A stretch of 35,996 bases of DNA, taken from positions 1-35,996 of the forward strand of contig QQRY01000047.1 of NCBI GenBank assembly GCA_003602575.1, read 5' to 3'. Position numbers and translations under genes: made by a program. Under the pieces are notes generated by a model. That model did no database searches, was not told where the DNA came from, and saw only the letters and a list, made by a program, of their open reading frames with translations. Every line of letters begins with the position of its first letter. Within the stretch, counting starts at the first letter, position 1. The stretch comes from Candidatus Poseidoniales archaeon (GTDB lineage: Archaea; Thermoplasmatota; Poseidoniia; Poseidoniales; Poseidoniaceae). Of the stretch, positions 7,485 through 35,996 are shown one piece after another.

Positions 7485-7491
7485 TTCACCT
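7485..7491 (-). promoter_or_regulatory. Shine-Dalgarno for glmS
   Basis: Read on the minus strand, TAGGTGAATTAAATG places AGGTGAA about four bases before the glmS ATG and overlapping the TAG stop of the subtilase gene. This supports the chosen start and translation from a shared mRNA. Confidence 0.6.
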
Positions 7492-10400
7492 ATAGATTTA
7501 CTACTGCTGAACAAATAGGACAAACCGTTTTCCTCAGCATCATGTCTTTGACAGTGAATTTAGCAGAACATTCAGTACAACTTACTTCACGCTGAGGGGT
7601 TGGCATTCCAGCAATCGGAGGTAGATTTCCAAGTGGCGGTAATTCTCCGTCGCCTAATGGTGGTAGAGCAGGAAGTGGCGGCAAGTCAAGTTCTGCATCT
7701 AAAGGAGGTAATGTAGCATCTAAAGGTGGTAGATTCGCAACAGGAGGATTAGATAACATTTTTTCCGTGATTTCGGCAATCTCTCTTTGTTGTTTACGCT
7801 TCATTCTACGATCTAGCCGACTATTTCCTTGCCCAGTTTCCACCTTTGACTCTAGAGTTTCAGCAAGTGTTGTCTCTTTTTCTTCTTTCAGTTCATTTTC
7901 AGGCAAAGTCTGAACTGATGATTGAACTACTAATTCTTCTGAGTCTAGATTTATTGCTAATTCACCATCATCTTCTTCGATATCTACCATTAGTTCAACT
8001 GCATCGTCATCCACTTGACTTTGAATGATTAATTCTTCTTCTTTCTCTCGACGGAGAGAACGTACTGAAACTACTAGCCCAGCCAATAACACTACCATGA
8101 CAAATACTGATACTCCAAGTATTATTTGTTGAGTTTGTCTATCGCCTGGCAATGGTGCAAGCAATGAATCAATGAATGACTTCGAGGAATCAGGAACTTC
8201 TTCTGCTTCAAGTGAAGCCAAACTCCGTAGTGAAAGTACTCCACTACTAGATGACAATACTATTATTCCATCTTTATCTAATCCAGCATAACCTAGAACA
8301 AATCCTTCAGAAATCATATTTGACATTGCAAATTCTACTCCATTCCCATTATCGCTTACTGTACCATAACGAGTCATTGGCCCGTAAACATTGATCTCAT
8401 CAAATAGAATGCGGACGTCTTCTCCGTCTGAATTAAGTTGTAAATTACTAGCGCCTTGAGCATCAAAGTATGACGCTTCGTCTACAGACCACGCATTATC
8501 AGTGACCGCGTATGCTATTTTTGAAGATGCCCCGCTACCTTCTATCCAAGAAGCGATTAGAATATCTCTTTCGTTTTCTTGGATAGTCTCTAATTGGGCA
8601 TGACTTGCATCATCGCCAACTGAATATTGGAATGACCATGAAGACATCCATTCTTTCCCATGCGCATACATCAATCCAACTCTTTCTATCCCGGAAACAT
8701 CATCTCTCATTTCTTGGTATAGTATGTGCAGATTCTCATCACCTAGGGAGATAGCTAATGAATCGCCTTCTGATGGTTTGATATCAATATTGTATAGAAC
8801 ATTACTAAGACTCCAAGAACTTTCAACTTGTGGGGAATCAGAAATCATAACGAAAATGGAGGTTGAGTCTTGCCATGAACCTCCTGTGGCTATATCGCGA
8901 TGATATCCTGCAAGAACCATTCTATCGCCATTTTGAGCTAAATCAAGACCCCAATATCTCCCTTCTGAAAGTTTGATTGGAGTCATATGACTTTGAATCG
9001 AAGTTGTTTCTCCTGAACTCGTAATAGAGGTCATAGAAATATCTGTTAAGAAATAACCGGATTGACTTAGTTTATTCTCAGTCCAAGCGGCCTGTACAAG
9101 TCCATCATCTCTCTTCATTACTGCTAATTCACCAGCCCAAGAATCTGCTAGTTTGACTTGACCTGGAACTGACAATGAGTCGGTGATAGTTCTAACATGT
9201 AATTCACCATCCAAAGTAGTGAATAATAATCCACCTTCATCTAAGCCAACAAAATCTAGAATTATTTCATTAGAAATTAAATTTAACCTGACGGGTGAAC
9301 CAATATTTACATTATCAACTACAACGCTAAAGACATATGTACTAAACTCATTTTCAACACCATCGCCTTGTAGTTCTGCTTTAAATTCAGTACTTCCAAG
9401 AATAGAACTTGATTCATTTATCACAAAGGTCACTTCTTCATAACCCGAACTAGATTGCGAGCCTGGTATTTGCATTATCATCTCTTGTCCAACATCGGTC
9501 CATCCGCCATCTCTCATGTACAATTTCATAATTAAATTATTTGCATCGGTTTGTCCCAAATTATCAACTCTCACATTGATGTTGTAAGACATATCAGGTG
9601 CTGGTATTACCGGGAAGGTTTTGACCGCACCAGCCATGAATCTCAGCGTTGGTTCAACCGGTCTTTCAGTAATTTCAAAATTGAATGTATAGGTATTATC
9701 ATCTCTTTGTAAATCTGAATGAGTATTTGATGGATCTATGCTTATCATCACTTCATGAACACCCACTTCTGTCGCCCACCAGTATAGGGTTATTTCTCGA
9801 GAATCTCCTTCCTTGAGTGAACCAATGGTTGCTTCTGATGGATAGATTTCTGAATCACTTCCAGGGGCGTCTAATTTAACAAAAACATCGTTAACATCGA
9901 GGTCACCTACATTGGCAATTGTAAAGTCAATTGTTAATGCAGAACCTGCAACTGCAGATTGCATAGGCAAACCGACTTCATCTTTAATTCCAACAACTCC
10001 CGTAAATATAAAGTCTGGAGCTGCTGGTTGATTGTCAATAGTGAATGTTCTTCTTACGTCATCTGTCTTGAGACCACTTTCATTAACCATCCTAAAACTC
10101 AGTCGAGTCGAACCATCAGGTACTTCTCTTGAATCCCAACTAAAAGACCAATCTTGATTTCCTACTTCTAGCTCTGGTAAACTCATTGCGAATTGCCAAT
10201 CTCCACTGTCTATTTTGAATTCGATATAATCATGTTCAACACCTTCTACGGTACCTGAAAAGTCCACATTGCCCTGAAGAGAAGTACCTACTACTGGGCT
10301 AGCGAGAGTAATTCCCATTCTAGCTAAATTAATTACCCGGAAATCTATAGCCGACTCGGTTTCAGTTTCGGTATCAACTGCTCTAACACTAACAAGAACA

Positions 10401-12469
10401 TAATCTTCATCAAGTTCTATCCATTCAGATTTAATGTTCACATTAAGAGACCATTGATCAATATCTCCACCTGCAATCGTCCATGGTTTGAGTTCCTTGG
10501 TATTTCCAGACTCTAAGTACTGAACGATGTTTACCTGAATTTGATCATATGCGATTCCTTCGGGAACATCTGTAGTCCCAGAGATTGTAACCCTGCTACC
10601 TTCCATCCACCATGAACCATTAGTCGGTTGGGAGATTACGACGTGATCGCCTGAACCATTTCCAGTAGGTGGAGGAACAATAGCCCCTCCCTCCAAGGGT
10701 GTACACGGTTTGTTGAGGGCCATGTCTATTGCGCAGGATGCATCGATTAATCCGAAGCCCCACTTGTCATTCCATCGATTTGAAACTGAGGTTTCTGATG
10801 CCTTATCTTGTTGAATCTCAGAAGAATTACGAATTATATCTCTAATTTCTAAAGCATCTAATGATGGATTTGCTTCAATCACTGTTGCTACCACCCCTGA
10901 AGCGATTGGAGTCGCCATACTAGTTCCATCTTTTTCATCATAATCTGAATTCGCTTCTGGCCTAGGTGCTCCGGGTATTGAAGTGCCTGTAGCAGCAGTA
11001 GCTGAAATTATATTTGAACCAAATGAAGCGATATCTGGTTTTAGTTCATCCCAGTCATCATCATCACCATCGCTTAAACGAGGGCCGTAGTTTGAGTAAC
11101 TTGCTATACCATCATCGGTACGATTAATCGTACCAAAATCACTGGCTGCTGCAACAGATAGTCCATAATCGGCACTTGCTGGAGAAGGGACTCTCTTAGA
11201 GCCATCATTACCCATAGCAATTACACAAACTATATCTTGATCAATTGTTGCATTATTGACTAGTCTTGCTTCTGTTCCAGTCCCATTGTCACCTTCATCG
11301 CCTGGATTTAGTGGAGAAGAAACTGAACCAAATGACATTGAGCCTATTTGAATTCCACTGGCTGAAGAATTGTGCCCCCAATCCTTATTGGCATTATTTA
11401 TCATCCATTGAATCCCGTTTAGCGAGTATTGTGAGTTTGTACCGCCTGCATCAGTTAGGACTTTGATATCGACAAGATAAGCCCCCGGCGCAGTTCCAGT
11501 ATGTACTCTTGAGGAATCTCCTGTACCTAATGCTGAACCGGCAACGTGAGTTCCATGGCCCTGCCCATCATCTGGATCTTGTGTTCCATCAGGATTAGAT
11601 GCCGTTGACGTTGCATCATAACCTCCAACCCATTTGTGGTCATCATATGAAGTTGGGTCATCCACCACTGGATCATCATCAATATCATCGAAATCATTCA
11701 GAGAACGATGCTCGTTATCAACACCTGTGTCTAAAATAGCAATTACGACCCCATCGCCTGTATAATCACGTTCATATGCAGTAGCGGTATAGACATCGGA
11801 TGGATATGATCTGGTGGCCTTTGAAGCGATATTATTGAAAGGAATCATTACATTCTGCATCTCGATGACAACTACTCCTTCAAGATGATAAATATCCATT
11901 AATGCACTCACTGGGACTTTGTCAACAACTATTGAATCAACACTATCTAATGTTTGAAACCAAGCATCATTTTCTTGCCCAATCCATGAATGGCTTCTTA
12001 GAATCTGTTCTAATTTTTGCTCTTCTTCTTGCCCGGGATGCCAGGCATAATCAACTACAATAGCAACAGTTTTTCGTCCATCTTCACCGATTATTGCTGT
12101 AGGTGATATCGATTCCTGCCCTGCTAAAACTCTCTGTAGCCTATCATCCATTCCATTCCAATCTAAATCTGGACCGTATGAAAGCCACCATTCATTCTTT
12201 TCAGAGGCAGGTTGTGTGGTTCGTAAATCTGTTCTAAGTGGTCTCTCACAAAGTTCATCTCCGCACATCAATGGAGGTAAACCTTCAACCAATATCGGGC
12301 TTTCATGAGTCACTGGGGCAACTTGTACTACTTGTTCATTGGAGTTGGCATTAACTCCAAATGAGGACATATCAGATACTAAAAAAATCATCACGATTAG
12401 CAATGCAGTGCGTTGCATTTTCGCGCCGTTGATCATACGAGTCATTTCCTTCCCCATTGCGTGGAGCAT
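7490..12469 (-). CDS. Giant membrane-anchored subtilisin-like protease (S8) with CARDB-type repeats and cytoplasmic zinc ribbon
   Basis: The 1659-residue precursor starts with a signal peptide (TALLIVMIFLVSDM near 21-34) and a propeptide-like stretch (about 130-210). The S8 domain has Asp247 (ILDTGVD), His305 (GHGTHVAG), oxyanion Asn421 (MGNDGS) and Ser517 (GTSMATPIASG), so the triad is intact. Beyond about 610 come Ig/CARDB-like modules and a region with repeated strand patterns, perhaps a beta-propeller. One span lies near 1443-1470 (IILGVSVFVMVVLLAGLVV). The cytoplasmic tail has an acidic segment, proline-rich LPPL repeats and a terminal zinc ribbon (CTEC then CPIC). The start is uncertain: M1, M5, M9, M12 and M18 are all in frame before the signal peptide. 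It lies between rhomboid and glmS. Confidence 0.92.
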   Translation of the reverse strand: MLHAMGKEMTRMINGAKMQRTALLIVMIFLVSDMSSFGVNANSNEQVVQVAPVTHESPILVEGLPPLMCGDELCERPLRTDLRTTQPASEKNEWWLSYGPDLDWNGMDDRLQRVLAGQESISPTAIIGEDGRKTVAIVVDYAWHPGQEEEQKLEQILRSHSWIGQENDAWFQTLDSVDSIVVDKVPVSALMDIYHLEGVVVIEMQNVMIPFNNIASKATRSYPSDVYTATAYERDYTGDGVVIAILDTGVDNEHRSLNDFDDIDDDPVVDDPTSYDDHKWVGGYDATSTASNPDGTQDPDDGQGHGTHVAGSALGTGDSSRVHTGTAPGAYLVDIKVLTDAGGTNSQYSLNGIQWMINNANKDWGHNSSASGIQIGSMSFGSVSSPLNPGDEGDNGTGTEARLVNNATIDQDIVCVIAMGNDGSKRVPSPASADYGLSVAAASDFGTINRTDDGIASYSNYGPRLSDGDDDDWDELKPDIASFGSNIISATAATGTSIPGAPRPEANSDYDEKDGTSMATPIASGVVATVIEANPSLDALEIRDIIRNSSEIQQDKASETSVSNRWNDKWGFGLIDASCAIDMALNKPCTPLEGGAIVPPPTGNGSGDHVVISQPTNGSWWMEGSRVTISGTTDVPEGIAYDQIQVNIVQYLESGNTKELKPWTIAGGDIDQWSLNVNIKSEWIELDEDYVLVSVRAVDTETETESAIDFRVINLARMGITLASPVVGTSLQGNVDFSGTVEGVEHDYIEFKIDSGDWQFAMSLPELEVGNQDWSFSWDSREVPDGSTRLSFRMVNESGLKTDDVRRTFTIDNQPAAPDFIFTGVVGIKDEVGLPMQSAVAGSALTIDFTIANVGDLDVNDVFVKLDAPGSDSEIYPSEATIGSLKEGDSREITLYWWATEVGVHEVMISIDPSNTHSDLQRDDNTYTFNFEITERPVEPTLRFMAGAVKTFPVIPAPDMSYNINVRVDNLGQTDANNLIMKLYMRDGGWTDVGQEMIMQIPGSQSSSGYEEVTFVINESSSILGSTEFKAELQGDGVENEFSTYVFSVVVDNVNIGSPVRLNLISNEIILDFVGLDEGGLLFTTLDGELHVRTITDSLSVPGQVKLADSWAGELAVMKRDDGLVQAAWTENKLSQSGYFLTDISMTSITSSGETTSIQSHMTPIKLSEGRYWGLDLAQNGDRMVLAGYHRDIATGGSWQDSTSIFVMISDSPQVESSWSLSNVLYNIDIKPSEGDSLAISLGDENLHILYQEMRDDVSGIERVGLMYAHGKEWMSSWSFQYSVGDDASHAQLETIQENERDILIASWIEGSGASSKIAYAVTDNAWSVDEASYFDAQGASNLQLNSDGEDVRILFDEINVYGPMTRYGTVSDNGNGVEFAMSNMISEGFVLGYAGLDKDGIIVLSSSSGVLSLRSLASLEAEEVPDSSKSFIDSLLAPLPGDRQTQQIILGVSVFVMVVLLAGLVVSVRSLRREKEEELIIQSQVDDDAVELMVDIEEDDGELAINLDSEELVVQSSVQTLPENELKEEKETTLAETLESKVETGQGNSRLDRRMKRKQQREIAEITEKMLSNPPVANLPPLDATLPPLDAELDLPPLPALPPLGDGELPPLGNLPPIAGMPTPQREVSCTECSAKFTVKDMMLRKTVCPICSAVVNL

Positions 12470-24439: not shown

Positions 24440-25075
24440 TTGGCCATAGAGTTATCAAAACTCAAATCGCATCCGCATAATTCAGTCGAACTAGAGCAAT
24501 ATGCAACCGAAGGCGACTTAGCCGCTTTCTGGCTTCTAGCCGTTGACCAACTCGATAATCTAGAAAATAAAACCGTTCTTGACCTTGGGTCTGGAAACGG
24601 TATTCTAGGTTTAGGCACTGTATTTCTAGGTGCAAAAAGAGTAATCCTAGTTGAGGCAGATGAAGAAGCATGTTTAATTTCAAAGCAAAATACTGAAAAA
24701 ATTAATCACAAATTTAGTGCTCAAATTGAAACTATTCATGCGGAAATTGGATTACAGAAGCCCGATATACCCGTACAAACTGACATCGTCATAATGAACC
24801 CTCCATGGGGGTTTCAAACAGAAAAGGCAGATCGACCTTTGCTTGAATTCGCCTTTTCACTTGGTGCTACTGCAATTTATGTCCTTCATTCCGCCAAAGC
24901 CAAACATGTTGCTGCAATGGCAAAGGATTTTGGCTATGAAGGAGAGATTGTATTTGAGACAGATTTTCGCTTACCTCCAATGTATTCACACCACTCTAAG
25001 AAAAAATCGACGACTGATGCTAGATGCTGGAGATTTCATAGAACAGGTGATGCTAAAATCATTGAAAGTGAGTAA
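24440..25075 (+). CDS. METTL5-like SAM-dependent methyltransferase
   Basis: The 211-residue Rossmann methyltransferase closely follows the METTL5 family. It has an N-terminal LEQYATEGDLAAFWLL, motif I VLDLGSGNGILGLGT, an acidic EADEEA loop after beta 2, and the catalytic NPPWGFQ (NPPF in most METTL5 proteins). Human METTL5 makes m6A in 18S rRNA; archaeal relatives are presumed rRNA or tRNA adenine methylases. The NPPW motif fits an N6-adenine target, by inference. The start is a TTG at 24440, chosen because the family N-terminus aligns there and no ATG is suitably placed. Its last codon begins an 8-bp inverted repeat. Confidence 0.85.
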   Translation: MAIELSKLKSHPHNSVELEQYATEGDLAAFWLLAVDQLDNLENKTVLDLGSGNGILGLGTVFLGAKRVILVEADEEACLISKQNTEKINHKFSAQIETIHAEIGLQKPDIPVQTDIVIMNPPWGFQTEKADRPLLEFAFSLGATAIYVLHSAKAKHVAAMAKDFGYEGEIVFETDFRLPPMYSHHSKKKSTTDARCWRFHRTGDAKIIESE

Positions 25076-25187: not shown

Positions 25188-26603
25188 ATGAATAACATGA
25201 CGGCGAGCCTCGTCACCCCAGGAATGCAAGTATCAACAGTAGCAAAATGTGCTGCTGGTGAAGGAACGATTGAAGTCGATGGAAAGATTGTTGCCACAAC
25301 GATTGGCGTCTTTTCTATTGAACAAGGATTTGGCGTGGTTATGCCACAAAAAGAACTTGTTAGCCCGGTTGTTGGTGATACTGTAATTTGTGAAATTGTC
25401 AAACTTAACGAAAAGAACGGAGAAGCAATGATTCTAGCCGTTGAAGGCAAGCCAGGAAGTATTCAACCAAATCACCTGTATGGCCAATTCCATGTTACTG
25501 GAATTGTTGATAGATACATGCATCAAACCGCTGACGCTGTTAGAAGGCGAGATGTTTGCCGTGCACTCATCAAAGAAGTCGAACCTGTAGTTCGCATAGA
25601 TTTCCGCGAAAGAGATGATTGCGGAGTGCTACATGCTATTTGTCCTCCTTGTGGAGAAAATCTAATCGCTCATCAAGATGGTGATTGGAATGTCAAGTGT
25701 GAGACTTGTGGATACCAAGCATATCGAGCACTTGCAGATAACTTCGCTGCTGGATGGGCCGAATTAGACCAAGGTGCAAGCGCTCTGAATAATTCAGGAA
25801 AGCGCTGGGGTTCGGCTGCTGAAGCAATGTTTGGCAAGGGGCCTTCTGGCCGTGCCACATTCATCGCCGAAGATGTTAGAGAAGATGGTCGTGAAAGAAC
25901 CTACTTTAGATTTGAAGGCGAGGGTGGAGGCGGACGTGGCTCGCAAAGACCCCGTCATAGCCCTGGATGTAAACTATTCATTGGCGGACTTCCAAGAGAA
26001 ATCGGAACCGATGAATTACGAGAGATGTTTGGTAAATTCGGCGATATGAGCGATTGTATTGTCCCTACTGATGATAACGGAGCGAATCGTGGATTTGGAT
26101 TTGTCACATATAGTCAAAAATCTGAAGCAGATGCAGCAATTGCTGAACTTGATGGCAATAAAATCAATGGTCGTAGAATTGGCGTAAGAGATGCGGATAG
26201 TGATGACAAGAAAGGTAAGAAGGGTAAGAGAAAAGACCCTGAAGGCGCTAAATTATACATTGGAAACCTTCCTTTCAAAGCAACTGAAGAACAACTCAGA
26301 GAAGTTTTCAAAGGCGTAGGAACTATTACTGGACTAAACATAATCACAGATAATGCTGGAAAGCCGAAAGGTTTCGCCTTCGCATTTGTCAAAGAAAAGG
26401 ATAAGGTCGAAGAAATCGTCAAATCCGTCAATGGCAGTGAATTACTTGGAAGAAAGATTCGTGTTGATGTTGCTCAACAAAAGAAGCGTAACAACAACAG
26501 TGGCGGCAAACCAGAGAAATCTTCTAGAGAATTGAGAGCCATGCGCGAGGAAGAAGAAGATTCGAAAAAGCGTAACCGAAGACCTCGGCCTAAGAAGGAT
26601 TGA
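25188..26603 (+). CDS. Exosome subunit Csl4 fused to two RRM domains
   Basis: Residues 8-58 match the archaeal Csl4 N-terminal domain (VTPGMQV, GEGTIEVDGKIVATTIG). Residues about 60-150 fit the S1 domain, and CPPC (152-155) with CETC (171-174) form the Csl4 zinc ribbon. After a glycine/arginine-rich linker come two RRMs: RRM1 at 262-336 with RNP2 LFIGGL and RNP1 RGFGFVTY, and RRM2 at 355-429 with RNP2 LYIGNL and RNP1 KGFAFAFV. The tail (430-471) is strongly basic. Csl4 caps the RNA-degrading exosome and helps choose substrates. Typical archaeal Csl4 is under 200 residues with no RRM, so this protein should bind extra RNA. The frame is continuous with no sign of a frameshift. Confidence 0.88.
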   Translation: MNNMTASLVTPGMQVSTVAKCAAGEGTIEVDGKIVATTIGVFSIEQGFGVVMPQKELVSPVVGDTVICEIVKLNEKNGEAMILAVEGKPGSIQPNHLYGQFHVTGIVDRYMHQTADAVRRRDVCRALIKEVEPVVRIDFRERDDCGVLHAICPPCGENLIAHQDGDWNVKCETCGYQAYRALADNFAAGWAELDQGASALNNSGKRWGSAAEAMFGKGPSGRATFIAEDVREDGRERTYFRFEGEGGGGRGSQRPRHSPGCKLFIGGLPREIGTDELREMFGKFGDMSDCIVPTDDNGANRGFGFVTYSQKSEADAAIAELDGNKINGRRIGVRDADSDDKKGKKGKRKDPEGAKLYIGNLPFKATEEQLREVFKGVGTITGLNIITDNAGKPKGFAFAFVKEKDKVEEIVKSVNGSELLGRKIRVDVAQQKKRNNNSGGKPEKSSRELRAMREEEEDSKKRNRRPRPKKD

Positions 26604-26627: not shown

Positions 26628-28403
26628 ATGGCCGAGCACAGTGAACCCAAGTGGTTGATTCTTGACGGCTATGAAGATGAGCCTGCTGCTTTTGGTGTCC
26701 CACCATATGTTGGTTTCCACATTCGATATCTATGTGGCGTACTAGAAGAGGCAAGAATTGATTATCGATATATGACAATCGATCAATGGCGTAATTTTAT
26801 TGAACAAAAAGGCGTCGGTGGTGTTCAAAAATTAATGTCAAATATCGAGGGTTTCGCTTGTATTGCCGGTGCAGTAGTTCCTGGTAGGTATCTTAGAGGA
26901 ACTCCTATTTCACTCAAGGAAATGCAAAATATTGTCCGAGAATTACCTTCAGGAATTCCAGCTATACTCGGTGGATGGGCGATTCGTGGATGGCGTCAAC
27001 AAGGTTGGAATCCACTGAGGAAAAATTTATTTTTGGCCTTACAAGATACCGATGCAACATTGAACAACTACCTTGAAAGTGGTCAATGGAAACACTGTCG
27101 TAGAAATTCACAGCAATGGACCAAGTGGGCGCACCTTGGAGCTAAGAGCAAGGCTGTGGAATTTCATCCAGATTTGGGAAGTCAAGAAAAGCCCGGTCCT
27201 CTAACATATGAAGTCGAGGTTTACCAAGGCTGTGTCCGATTCAAGAGAGGATGTAAATTCTGTATTGAACCGAAAAAAGGAGTACCAATTTGGCGCACGC
27301 CTGAAGATATTATTCAAGAGGTGAAAATAGCCCATGATATGGGTGTCAAACATGTTCGTCTTGGCGGGATGACTGATACTTACACATACATGGCAGAAGG
27401 TGTAAGAGAATTAGAATATCCAATACCCAATCCTGAACCTATTGCTAAGTTGCTTCATGGACTCCGAGATGATGACCGTCTTGAAATCCTTCATACTGAT
27501 AACGGCAATCCTTCTATCATTGCTGAAAATATTGAACCTTCCGAAGAGATTACTAAGACATTGGTTGAAACATTATCTGATGGTGCTGTACTTTCATTTG
27601 GACTTGAATCAGCAGACCCCAATGTTCACGAAGCAAACTGGCTAAATTGTGACTCTAATCAACTGAAGGATGCAATAAGGCTGATCAATAAATATGGAAA
27701 AGAACGTGGAGAAAGAGGCCTTCCTAAACTTCTACCTGGATTGAATTTTATTGCTGGTTTGAATGGAGAAACAAAAGAAACCTATAGACTCAATTTAGAT
27801 TTACTGCATGAGATACGTAAGGAAGATTTGTTACTTAGGAGAATTAATATCCGTCAAGTAGAAGGTGAAGGTTTCCAAGAGATACCTCAAGAAGCATTTA
27901 AGAATTTCAAAAGTAGTGTACGAGACACTATTGACAAACCACTACTAGAAGATTTATTCCCCTTGGGTGGAGAATTATGCGGTGTGCATTGGGAGACTCA
28001 TGATGGGCGCACTAGGCTGCCCAAACATCTAGAAATTGAACACACATCAGAATCCTGCCGTGGGAAAGCTGGCATCACTTTTGGCCGACAAATTGGAGCA
28101 TATCCTATATTGATTGGTGCGCAATACCACATTCCACTTGAAACTAAATCAAATATTATAATCACTGGACATGGCGCTAGATCTATTACAGGAGTTGAAA
28201 CAAACATGAATCATGATATTATTTCACAAAAGCAATTAGAAGCAATTCCAGGAATTGGGGAAAAGTCTGCTTGGAAGTTAATCAGCCAAAGAGTTAAGAT
28301 GAAGAGGAAAAATGGTAATGAATTTTCTTTCGTAAATGCTGAAAATTGGTTTGAGCAATCAAAAATAGAATGGAGTGCGTCTTTTGAGAGGTTTTTTGTC
28401 TAA
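26628..28403 (+). CDS. Radical SAM protein with C-terminal helix-hairpin-helix (COG1031-like)
   Basis: The 591-residue protein has an N-terminal Rossmann-like part (ILDGYEDEPAAFGVPPY; ACIAGAVVPGRYLRG; AILGGWAIRGW) resembling the cobalamin-binding fold of other radical SAM enzymes. Its cluster motif is unusual: Cys202-x6-Cys209-x2-Cys212 (GCVRFKRGCKFC). A TIM-barrel region follows, with GGMTDTYTY and SFGLESADP. Near 543-561 is a helix-hairpin-helix motif (LEAIPGIGEKSAWKLISQR), suggesting nucleic-acid contact. The combination matches the uncharacterised archaeal radical SAM family with C-terminal HhH. The substrate is unknown. It lies 24 bases after the csl4-RRM gene, so a shared RNA-related role is plausible but unproven. 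Confidence 0.85.
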   Translation: MAEHSEPKWLILDGYEDEPAAFGVPPYVGFHIRYLCGVLEEARIDYRYMTIDQWRNFIEQKGVGGVQKLMSNIEGFACIAGAVVPGRYLRGTPISLKEMQNIVRELPSGIPAILGGWAIRGWRQQGWNPLRKNLFLALQDTDATLNNYLESGQWKHCRRNSQQWTKWAHLGAKSKAVEFHPDLGSQEKPGPLTYEVEVYQGCVRFKRGCKFCIEPKKGVPIWRTPEDIIQEVKIAHDMGVKHVRLGGMTDTYTYMAEGVRELEYPIPNPEPIAKLLHGLRDDDRLEILHTDNGNPSIIAENIEPSEEITKTLVETLSDGAVLSFGLESADPNVHEANWLNCDSNQLKDAIRLINKYGKERGERGLPKLLPGLNFIAGLNGETKETYRLNLDLLHEIRKEDLLLRRINIRQVEGEGFQEIPQEAFKNFKSSVRDTIDKPLLEDLFPLGGELCGVHWETHDGRTRLPKHLEIEHTSESCRGKAGITFGRQIGAYPILIGAQYHIPLETKSNIIITGHGARSITGVETNMNHDIISQKQLEAIPGIGEKSAWKLISQRVKMKRKNGNEFSFVNAENWFEQSKIEWSASFERFFV

Positions 28404-33477: not shown

Positions 33478-35996
33478 ATGGCCGATGAAGAGGTAGTGTT
33501 CCAGACTAGCACTGGACCAGTGCGAATAATCACTGCAGCCTCGCTTTTTGATGGCCATGATGCGGCGATAAATGTCATGCGCAGACTGATTCAATCATCT
33601 GGTGCTGAAGTGATTCACCTTGGCCACGACCAATCGGCAAAAGCTGTTGTTGATTGTGCTGTTCAAGAAGATGCACATGGTGTTGCCCTAACCTCATATC
33701 AAGGCGGCCATATTGAGTATTTCACATACATTCGTCAACTTCTCGATGAGGCTGGATGTGAGCATGTTAGAATCTTTGGCGGAGGCGGTGGAACAATTAC
33801 TCCTCCTGAAATCAAGACCTTGCACGAATCTGGAATCTCTAAAATTTACTCACCTGATGATGGCCGAACAATGGGCTTAATGGGCATGATTCACCATCTT
33901 ATGGGAATTGCAAGTGAAGTCGACATCATAGGTAAAGAGCGACTTAGCACGCTAAACGGACCGGTCACTCCAGAAGACATGGCAAAGGTAGGATTGCTTT
34001 TGACTATGTCAGAAAGTGCTGATGATGACCTGTTCAAGTCGACTTTGGAGACTTGTCGCTCCTCGAGTGACGATGTACCTGTCATTGGTTTTACTGGGAC
34101 TGGTGGTGCAGGAAAATCAAGTCTTCTCGATGAATTAATGCTAAGAATTCTAAGAGACAACCCCGGTAAGAAAATCTGCTTACTTTGTGTTGACCCGACT
34201 CGTAAGCGAACCGGTGGTGCTCTACTTGGCGATAGAATCAGAATGAATTCTCTTTCAAACAATGATCTATTCATGCGAAGTCTAGCAAGTAGGGGTTCAG
34301 GAAGTGAGATTTCTGCTAACCTTGACCGAGCAATTGAGGTTGCAAAGGCTGTTGGATTTGACATGATTTTCTGTGAAACAAGTGGTATTGGCCAAGGTAG
34401 CGATGCGATTACTTCTGTTGCCGACCATTCACTATACGTTATGACTGCAGAGTTTGGCGCACATACTCAACTTGAGAAAATCGAAATGCTTGATGTCGCT
34501 GATGTTGTTGTTCTAAACAAGTATGAGAAGCGTGGCAGTGAAGATGCACTTCGAGCCATTCGTAAACAGGTTAGACGCAATAGAAATCTGTTTGATGTCG
34601 CTGATGAAGAGTTACCAGTCGTAGCAACTATTGCCAGTCAATTCGCTGATGGTGGAGTAGACAGACTATGGGGCAAGGTTGCAAAACTCGTAGGATTTGA
34701 GGCGAGCGAGCCTGTTGATTTGATGGGTGAGCGCAAAGGAGTTATTCCTTCAGAGCGTGTCTATTACTTGTCTGAAATTGCCGCTACTGTTAGGGAATAT
34801 CATCAAAGAAATGGTGAAGTTGTCGAGAAACTAAGACTATGCCAGCATCTTGAAACCGCAGCAGAGAATGCTACAAGTCGAGGATCTAAGGCTGTTGCAG
34901 ATGATTTACAAACTCAAATTGATGAATTACTCGAGGAAATTTCCGAGGCTAGAAATGAATTAGCAGAGTTTAGAGAATTAGCAAAACAATACTCCAGTGG
35001 CGAGCATACCTATCACGTTAGAGGAAAACCATTCACTGTTCAAACAACTACTAAGTCTCTTTCACACTCTGACATCCCTAGAGTTTCCCTGCCAACATTT
35101 GCTGATGATGGAGAATTATATTCTTGGATGACTAAAGAAAATGCTCCAGGACATTTCCCATATTCTGCCGGTGTATTCCCATTCAAGCGTACCGATGAAC
35201 TCTCAGCAAGAATGTTTGCTGGAGAAGGTGAGCCAGAACGAACTAACAGAAGATTCCATTATCTGTCTCAAGGCCAAGATTATGTCCGTTTGTCTACTGC
35301 TTTTGACTCTGTAACTCTGTATGGAAGAGACCCGGCAAAGCGACCAGATATTTGGGGTAAAGTAGGAAACTCTGGAGTAAGTATTGCTACATGTGATGAT
35401 GCTAAGCGTCTTTATTCTGGTTTTGATTTATGTAATCCAAATACTTCAGTTAGTATGACAATCAATGGGCCTGCGCCAATTATTCTTGCATTCTATCTCA
35501 ATGCAGCAATCGACCAACAAGTCGAAGCACATCTTGTCGAAAATGGTAAACTTCCAAAAATAAACAAAGATGCTTATCGAGGAGATTTACCTGAAGGACA
35601 CAATGGATTTGGCCTTGCTACTATTGGTCGAAGAGGCGATGAACTGATCGATGAGAAGACATACGCAGAGATCAAAGCAAAAACTCTTCAAACTGTTAGA
35701 GGAACTGTTCAAGCCGATATTCTCAAAGAAGACCAAGCCCAAAATACCTGTATTTTCTCAACTCCATTCGCTCTCAAACTGATGGGTGATGTCCAACAAT
35801 ACTACATCGATAATGGAGTTAGAAACCACTACTCAGTATCTATTTCAGGATATCACATTGCTGAGGCAGGAGCAAATCCAATCACTCAACTTGCTCTAAC
35901 ATTGGCCAATGGTTTCACCTATGTTGAATACTATCGAAGTCGAGGAATGGATATCAACAAGTTCGCTCCTAACCTATCGTTCTTCTTTAGCAATGG
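33478..35996 (+). CDS. icmF: IcmF-type fused isobutyryl-CoA mutase with G-protein chaperone (3' partial)
   Basis: The first 839 residues of an approximately 1,090-residue family are visible. Order: B12-binding domain (1-145) with DGHDAA at 25-30 as the lower-ligand motif, a MeaI-type GTPase with P-loop GTGGAGKSS (207-215), a helical linker (about 400-500), then the mutase barrel starting near 520. The substrate loop PGHFPYSAGVFPFKR (about 555-570) has the IcmF pattern, not the PFTRGPYP pattern of methylmalonyl-CoA mutase. The GTPase base motif is NKYE (347-350) in place of NKxD. The enzyme interconverts isobutyryl-CoA and butyryl-CoA with adenosylcobalamin, and the built-in G protein guards cofactor loading. 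ATG 33478 fits the frame; the stop lies beyond the window. Confidence 0.93.
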   Translation, partial: MADEEVVFQTSTGPVRIITAASLFDGHDAAINVMRRLIQSSGAEVIHLGHDQSAKAVVDCAVQEDAHGVALTSYQGGHIEYFTYIRQLLDEAGCEHVRIFGGGGGTITPPEIKTLHESGISKIYSPDDGRTMGLMGMIHHLMGIASEVDIIGKERLSTLNGPVTPEDMAKVGLLLTMSESADDDLFKSTLETCRSSSDDVPVIGFTGTGGAGKSSLLDELMLRILRDNPGKKICLLCVDPTRKRTGGALLGDRIRMNSLSNNDLFMRSLASRGSGSEISANLDRAIEVAKAVGFDMIFCETSGIGQGSDAITSVADHSLYVMTAEFGAHTQLEKIEMLDVADVVVLNKYEKRGSEDALRAIRKQVRRNRNLFDVADEELPVVATIASQFADGGVDRLWGKVAKLVGFEASEPVDLMGERKGVIPSERVYYLSEIAATVREYHQRNGEVVEKLRLCQHLETAAENATSRGSKAVADDLQTQIDELLEEISEARNELAEFRELAKQYSSGEHTYHVRGKPFTVQTTTKSLSHSDIPRVSLPTFADDGELYSWMTKENAPGHFPYSAGVFPFKRTDELSARMFAGEGEPERTNRRFHYLSQGQDYVRLSTAFDSVTLYGRDPAKRPDIWGKVGNSGVSIATCDDAKRLYSGFDLCNPNTSVSMTINGPAPIILAFYLNAAIDQQVEAHLVENGKLPKINKDAYRGDLPEGHNGFGLATIGRRGDELIDEKTYAEIKAKTLQTVRGTVQADILKEDQAQNTCIFSTPFALKLMGDVQQYYIDNGVRNHYSVSISGYHIAEAGANPITQLALTLANGFTYVEYYRSRGMDINKFAPNLSFFFSN

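Follow-up and report, generated by a model that had tools for sequence, protein, structure and literature searches.

The window analysed here is a 35,996-nucleotide stretch of a Candidatus Poseidoniales contig, and it carries on its forward strand one continuous frame in which the exosome cap subunit Csl4 is joined to two RRMs (Table 1). The 471-residue chain runs from a Csl4 part (N-terminal domain, S1 domain and zinc ribbon) through a 70-residue extension to two RRMs and a basic tail, and its limits are exactly those given in the first-pass annotation. Translation may in fact begin at Met4, with which the starts of relatives align. The order methyltransferase–csl4–radical SAM is retained at most of the loci examined in both families of the Poseidoniales (families as defined in PMC6461757), that is, in the window's own family, Poseidoniaceae, and in a sister family that is presumably Thalassarchaeaceae (MGIIb), the second family of the order. 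The adjacency of methyltransferase and csl4 extends to the class-level sister group, probably Marine Group III, and to one other Thermoplasmatota genome. Gene order is thus conserved, and the csl4 genes of these groups are therefore considered orthologous.

Table 1. Features of the csl4-RRM locus and its flanking genes (positions in the window).
Feature	Position	Strand	Remarks
Methyltransferase gene	24440..25075	+	Precedes csl4; conserved neighbour, a marker of orthology
csl4-RRM gene	25188..26603	+	471 aa plus stop; ATG start at 25188, or Met4 at 25197
Csl4 N-terminal (ECR1_N-like) domain	25209..25373	+	Residues 8-62; Pfam ECR1_N 24.7 bits over 8-44; 2ba1 alignment
S1 domain region	25374..25592	+	Residues ~63-135; profile aligns over its whole length with Csl4 of known structure
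Csl4 zinc ribbon	25629..25718	+	Residues 148-177; Cys152/155/171/174
Conserved extension	25746..25961	+	Residues 187-258; motif LN..G.RW...AE...D.R common to both Poseidoniales families
RRM1	25965..26201	+	RNP2 LFIGGL 25974-25991; RNP1 RGFGFVTY 26088-26111; pLDDT ~72-86
RRM2	26244..26483	+	RNP2 LYIGNL 26253-26270; RNP1 KGFAFAFV 26367-26390; NCBIfam Rbp_regulator best stretch 356-432
C-terminal segment	26490..26600	+	Conserved SSREL.AMREEE helix and Lys/Arg-rich tail; helix in model
Radical SAM gene	26628..28403	+	Downstream of csl4; neighbour conserved within Poseidoniales

Profile comparisons identify the first ~186 residues as Csl4, though diverged in sequence. The NCBIfam equivalog model for Csl4 (PRK09521.1) matched at 87.1 bits (1.2e-24) over positions 2–178 of its 180, narrowly missing the cutoff of 90, above which the Csl4 of several relatives do score. 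A single-sequence search of the PDB aligned Archaeoglobus Csl4 (2ba1) with residues 8–187 at 8.6e-12, and a profile built from the window protein and its relatives matched 2ba1 (5e-33) and human CSL4 (1.7e-8) from end to end. Foldseek, run with a low-confidence AlphaFold model of residues 1–191, likewise ranked 2ba1 first, with mostly eukaryotic Csl4 chains next. Profiles thus do place residues 1–176 in Csl4, a point on which the first-pass annotation had staked its reading, and the N-terminal domain, S1 domain and zinc ribbon occur together in one chain under a full-length match. The N-terminal domain, by which the Csl4 of other archaea is mainly anchored to the Rrp41/Rrp42 ring (PMC4227792), is present in 60 of 60 relatives; the four cysteines of the zinc ribbon are invariant in those 60 and in an eight-member family alignment that includes sister groups. 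Pfam EXOSC1/S1 matches were weak and seen in relatives only. The domain order is that of Archaeoglobus fulgidus Csl4 (AF_0206, PDB 2ba1/3m7n), end to end by profile match, but the Poseidoniales protein has about 285 extra C-terminal residues, made up of the extension, the two RRMs and the basic tail.

Both RRMs are complete. Pfam RRM_1 (PF00076) matched the protein at 134.7 bits (1e-39) in two stretches of 77.9 and 64.7 bits (cutoff 20.7) that cover 69–70 of the 70 model positions, each with canonical RNP1 and RNP2 motifs, which bears out the earlier description of two full RRMs within the Csl4 chain. The RNA-stacking aromatics (RNP2 position 2, RNP1 positions 3 and 5) are near-invariant in RRM1, in RRM2 and in the RRM of the sister family, which argues for RNA binding, and the RRMs look able to bind RNA to judge from these residues. 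In single-domain searches the single best PDB match of each RRM was a poly(A)-binding protein, a matter of resemblance and not of specificity. In the AlphaFold model of the whole chain (pLDDT 61 overall) both RRMs are well predicted (pLDDT about 72–86) and the remainder is of low confidence.

The stretch between Csl4 and RRM1 (residues 183–260) had been described in the first-pass annotation as a linker, but it is not a neutral one: much of it matches Csl4 itself in conservation, and both families share a part of it. For the extension, dN/dS was 0.015–0.04 where computable, and when predicted alone it appears disordered (pLDDT ~30). This very conserved though apparently disordered segment of ~70 residues perhaps docks on another component of the exosome or ribosome. 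Among the pairs compared, strong purifying selection extends over Csl4, extension, RRMs and tail (dN/dS about 0.015–0.1 where computable), with the short spacer at residues 341–352 and the tail more variable than the other parts. Within the C-terminal segment, K444, R447, A451 and E454 are invariant in the 60 relatives.

To follow the fusion across the Thermoplasmatota, to which our genome scan for Csl4 with RRMs extended, we made an even draw of 390 genomes: 72 of the window's family, 55 of the sister family, eight of the class-level sister group and 255 others. RRMs were found in 71 of the 72 Poseidoniaceae genomes and 54 of the 55 sister-family genomes, and wherever the gene was complete, in either family, they lay within the Csl4 frame. 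Every one of the 106 complete Poseidoniaceae loci fetched (some genomes twice; 74 distinct RRM1 sequences) carries both RRMs; these copies come in part from single-cell assemblies and from CM001443.1, the MG-II chromosome. In relatives with complete genes, residues 183–260 showed neither a stop nor a division into separate genes, either of which would have spoken against a true fusion. A profile search of the window's genome gave one Csl4 match and no RRM match outside the Csl4 frame; a second, plain Csl4 was looked for elsewhere in that genome and none was found. One Poseidoniales genome of the draw, G229, and it alone, has RRM matches apparently outside Csl4; these are weak (38.8 and 22.4 bits) and lie in frames of 111 and 96 aa (C15:1843-2067; C16:12687-12806).

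The sister family has arranged its Csl4 differently. There the Csl4 part is followed by the LN..G.RW...AE motif, an RG-rich segment, a zf_Tbcl_2 finger, a single RRM and a tail that is short, basic and in many cases RG-rich. The finger, a CxxC-x17-CxxC treble clef (PF23477/TIGR04272), was recognized in three sister-family proteins at 39–50 bits against a Pfam cutoff of 27 and at 38–50 bits against an NCBIfam cutoff of 36, while a Pfam profile search of the window protein gave no zf_Tbcl_2 match. We considered whether the ~140-residue middle of the sister-family protein might hold a degenerate first RRM, and ruled this out, the segment consisting of the RG-rich stretch and the finger. By its domain content, the zinc finger with RG-rich stretches ahead of the RRM is a second, different putative RNA-binding design on Csl4.

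In the Thermoplasmatota sampled outside the order, Csl4 and RRMs are found apart. The class-level sister group has a plain Csl4 (open frames of 185–235 aa) and, in eight of eight genomes, a lone RRM in a separate frame of 85–105 aa, the two being on different contigs wherever both were located. RRMs also occur in 21 of the 255 other Thermoplasmatota genomes, where those listed are all short stand-alone frames (81–158 aa), and the Csl4 frames listed for these genomes span about 190–250 aa. The view, held at first pass, that RRMs are uncommon in archaea therefore stands only in part, small stand-alone RRMs being found in both of these sets. In trees, RRM1 groups with the sister-family RRM to the exclusion of the stand-alone RRMs (support 100/100), and RRM2 is fast-evolving and unsure in position. 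The fused-RRM clade, together with the shared extension motif, supports a single fusion of an RNA-binding module to Csl4 before the two families split, and the simplest reading of RRM2 is a tandem duplication within the Poseidoniaceae. Stand-alone RRMs, of the bacterial Rbp family and of other Thermoplasmatota, are the likely source of the fused ones; for the Marine Group III stand-alone RRM as their direct source, the AU test (p 0.39) neither rejected nor established such an origin.

The other parts of an exosome are encoded in the same genome. Genes for Rrp4, Rrp41 and Rrp42 are adjacent (G000:C50), with frames upstream of them that read as proteasome alpha and SBDS, and Csl4 thus co-occurs with all three. 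DnaG is also encoded (G000:C51:83262-84419), with its RNA-binding N-terminal domain, a Toprim domain and a diverged C-terminal domain, and it is present in nearly all Poseidoniales genomes sampled. The RRMs would therefore add to DnaG and not replace it; replacement of a lost DnaG was ruled out, since DnaG occurs across the Poseidoniales with conserved N-terminal and Toprim domains. The C-terminal domain of DnaG has been reported as important for interaction with the exosome in Sulfolobus. In Poseidoniales DnaG this domain is short and diverged, and most of the charged linker before it is missing; its divergence is roughly proportional to that of the rest of DnaG.

An engineered relative of this architecture exists: in the Csl4-NT chimera of Sulfolobus solfataricus, the N-terminal domain of DnaG was placed on the C-terminus of Csl4, and the product assembles and boosts RNA capture and degradation (PMC4227792). 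The Poseidoniales protein likewise bears its RNA-binding domains at the C-terminus of Csl4, but is natural, order-wide and RRM-based. The archaeal DnaG–Csl4 exosome also has an RNA-binding subunit added to the cap beside Csl4, in that case as a separate protein. In eukaryotes, RRM proteins such as RBM7 (in NEXT) and PABPN1 (in PAXT) direct RNA to the exosome, but these adaptors are separate proteins that act through the MTR4 helicase, and we know of no RRM in the core of the eukaryotic exosome. Bacterial PNPase, a phosphorolytic ring, does have RNA-binding domains in the same chain, but they are KH and S1 domains, not RRMs, and the whole is one polypeptide. The small RRM proteins of bacteria (Rbp family, NF058537) and the stand-alone RRMs of Thermoplasmatota belong to the same domain family as the fused RRMs but are single free domains of about 80–100 aa, and prokaryotic RRM proteins are mainly of one domain and about 90 aa (PMC9313427, 2022). 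The first-pass annotation knew of no described exosome subunit with built-in RRMs, and our search of a mainly open-access literature likewise found no description of such a Csl4 or other subunit.

Taken together, the protein is probably the sole Csl4 cap subunit of the Poseidoniales exosome, with a fused module that would grip RNA and feed it into decay. By analogy with the Sulfolobus chimera, the RRM module most likely acts in cis to make the exosome cap capture more RNA. The Csl4 N-terminal domain would anchor the protein on the Rrp41/Rrp42 ring, and the RRMs, held beside the pore on the conserved flexible extension, would hold single-stranded RNA and concentrate it locally, which would make the entry of 3' ends into the channel, for phosphorolysis (or tailing), more efficient. 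Up to three Csl4–RRM copies could surround the pore of each cap, and the RRMs would probably alter the substrate preference of the exosome. We infer that Csl4–RRM would be incorporated into the exosome, bind RNA and stimulate decay, possibly with some sequence preference.

Two other roles deserve consideration. On the one hand, the RRMs might chiefly be protein–protein modules that tether the exosome to the ribosome, Sm-like proteins or a helicase and not to substrate RNA. Some eukaryotic RRMs do work in this way, as when the RBM7 RRM binds ZCCHC8 (PMC5322736), and the conserved extension and C-terminal helix resemble possible docking segments; we nonetheless consider such a tether improbable, as the RNP1 and RNP2 aromatics are near-invariant, which is expected of selection for RNA stacking, and the sister family swaps two RRMs for a zinc finger and one RRM while keeping the RNA-binding face. 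On the other hand, homotrimeric Rrp4 caps assemble in vitro (PMC4227792), and since Rrp4-only caps are thus possible, Csl4–RRM could act elsewhere, binding RNA or serving as a chaperone on its own in the manner of the small bacterial RRM proteins. The fused RRMs do resemble the Rbp family, and the Csl4 part has diverged (87 bits, where the cutoff is 90), yet a role off the exosome seems quite unlikely to us: the ring-anchoring N-terminal domain is kept in all 60 relatives under strong purifying selection, no other Csl4 was found, and a protein that bound RNA on its own would have no need to retain the N-terminal domain, the S1 domain and a zinc ribbon with its four cysteines intact. Finally, an error of assembly or gene calling, or a fusion peculiar to a single lineage, is ruled out, given the same continuous frame in all independent relatives with complete genes, single-cell assemblies and CM001443.1 included, and given that the break in sister-family assembly G335 (overlapping frames, one of 213 and one of 230 aa) sits among ambiguous bases and the ‘insertion’ in L082 is a run of N.

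The choice of substrates by archaeal exosomes is thought to reside mostly in the preference of Rrp4 and DnaG for poly(A); in eukaryotes it falls to separate adaptors. Beyond the proposed capture of RNA by the cap, it is conceivable, and we offer this tentatively, that substrate selection has been built into the exosome itself in a clade-specific manner, with the RRM and zinc-finger modules on Csl4 choosing mRNAs or tails for decay and the differing modules of the two families giving rise to different RNA-decay programmes. If so, Csl4 would be the first known case of a core exosome subunit with its own targeting domain. A Csl4 with RRMs fixed across a dominant archaeal group of the surface ocean (Marine Group II) amounts to a natural version of the activity-boosting laboratory chimera, and it opens the gain of substrate preference by exosomes to direct test, the two module designs found in nature being available for comparison.

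Two further features of the window merit mention. At 33478-35994, a single frame that continues beyond the window's end combines a B12-binding domain with a MeaB-type GTPase and methylmalonyl-CoA mutase, an arrangement that we take to resemble IcmF-type fusions. On the reverse strand, positions 7490-12469 encode a protein of 1659 aa that has a subtilase peptidase domain and a CARDB repeat and is likely a large secreted protease.
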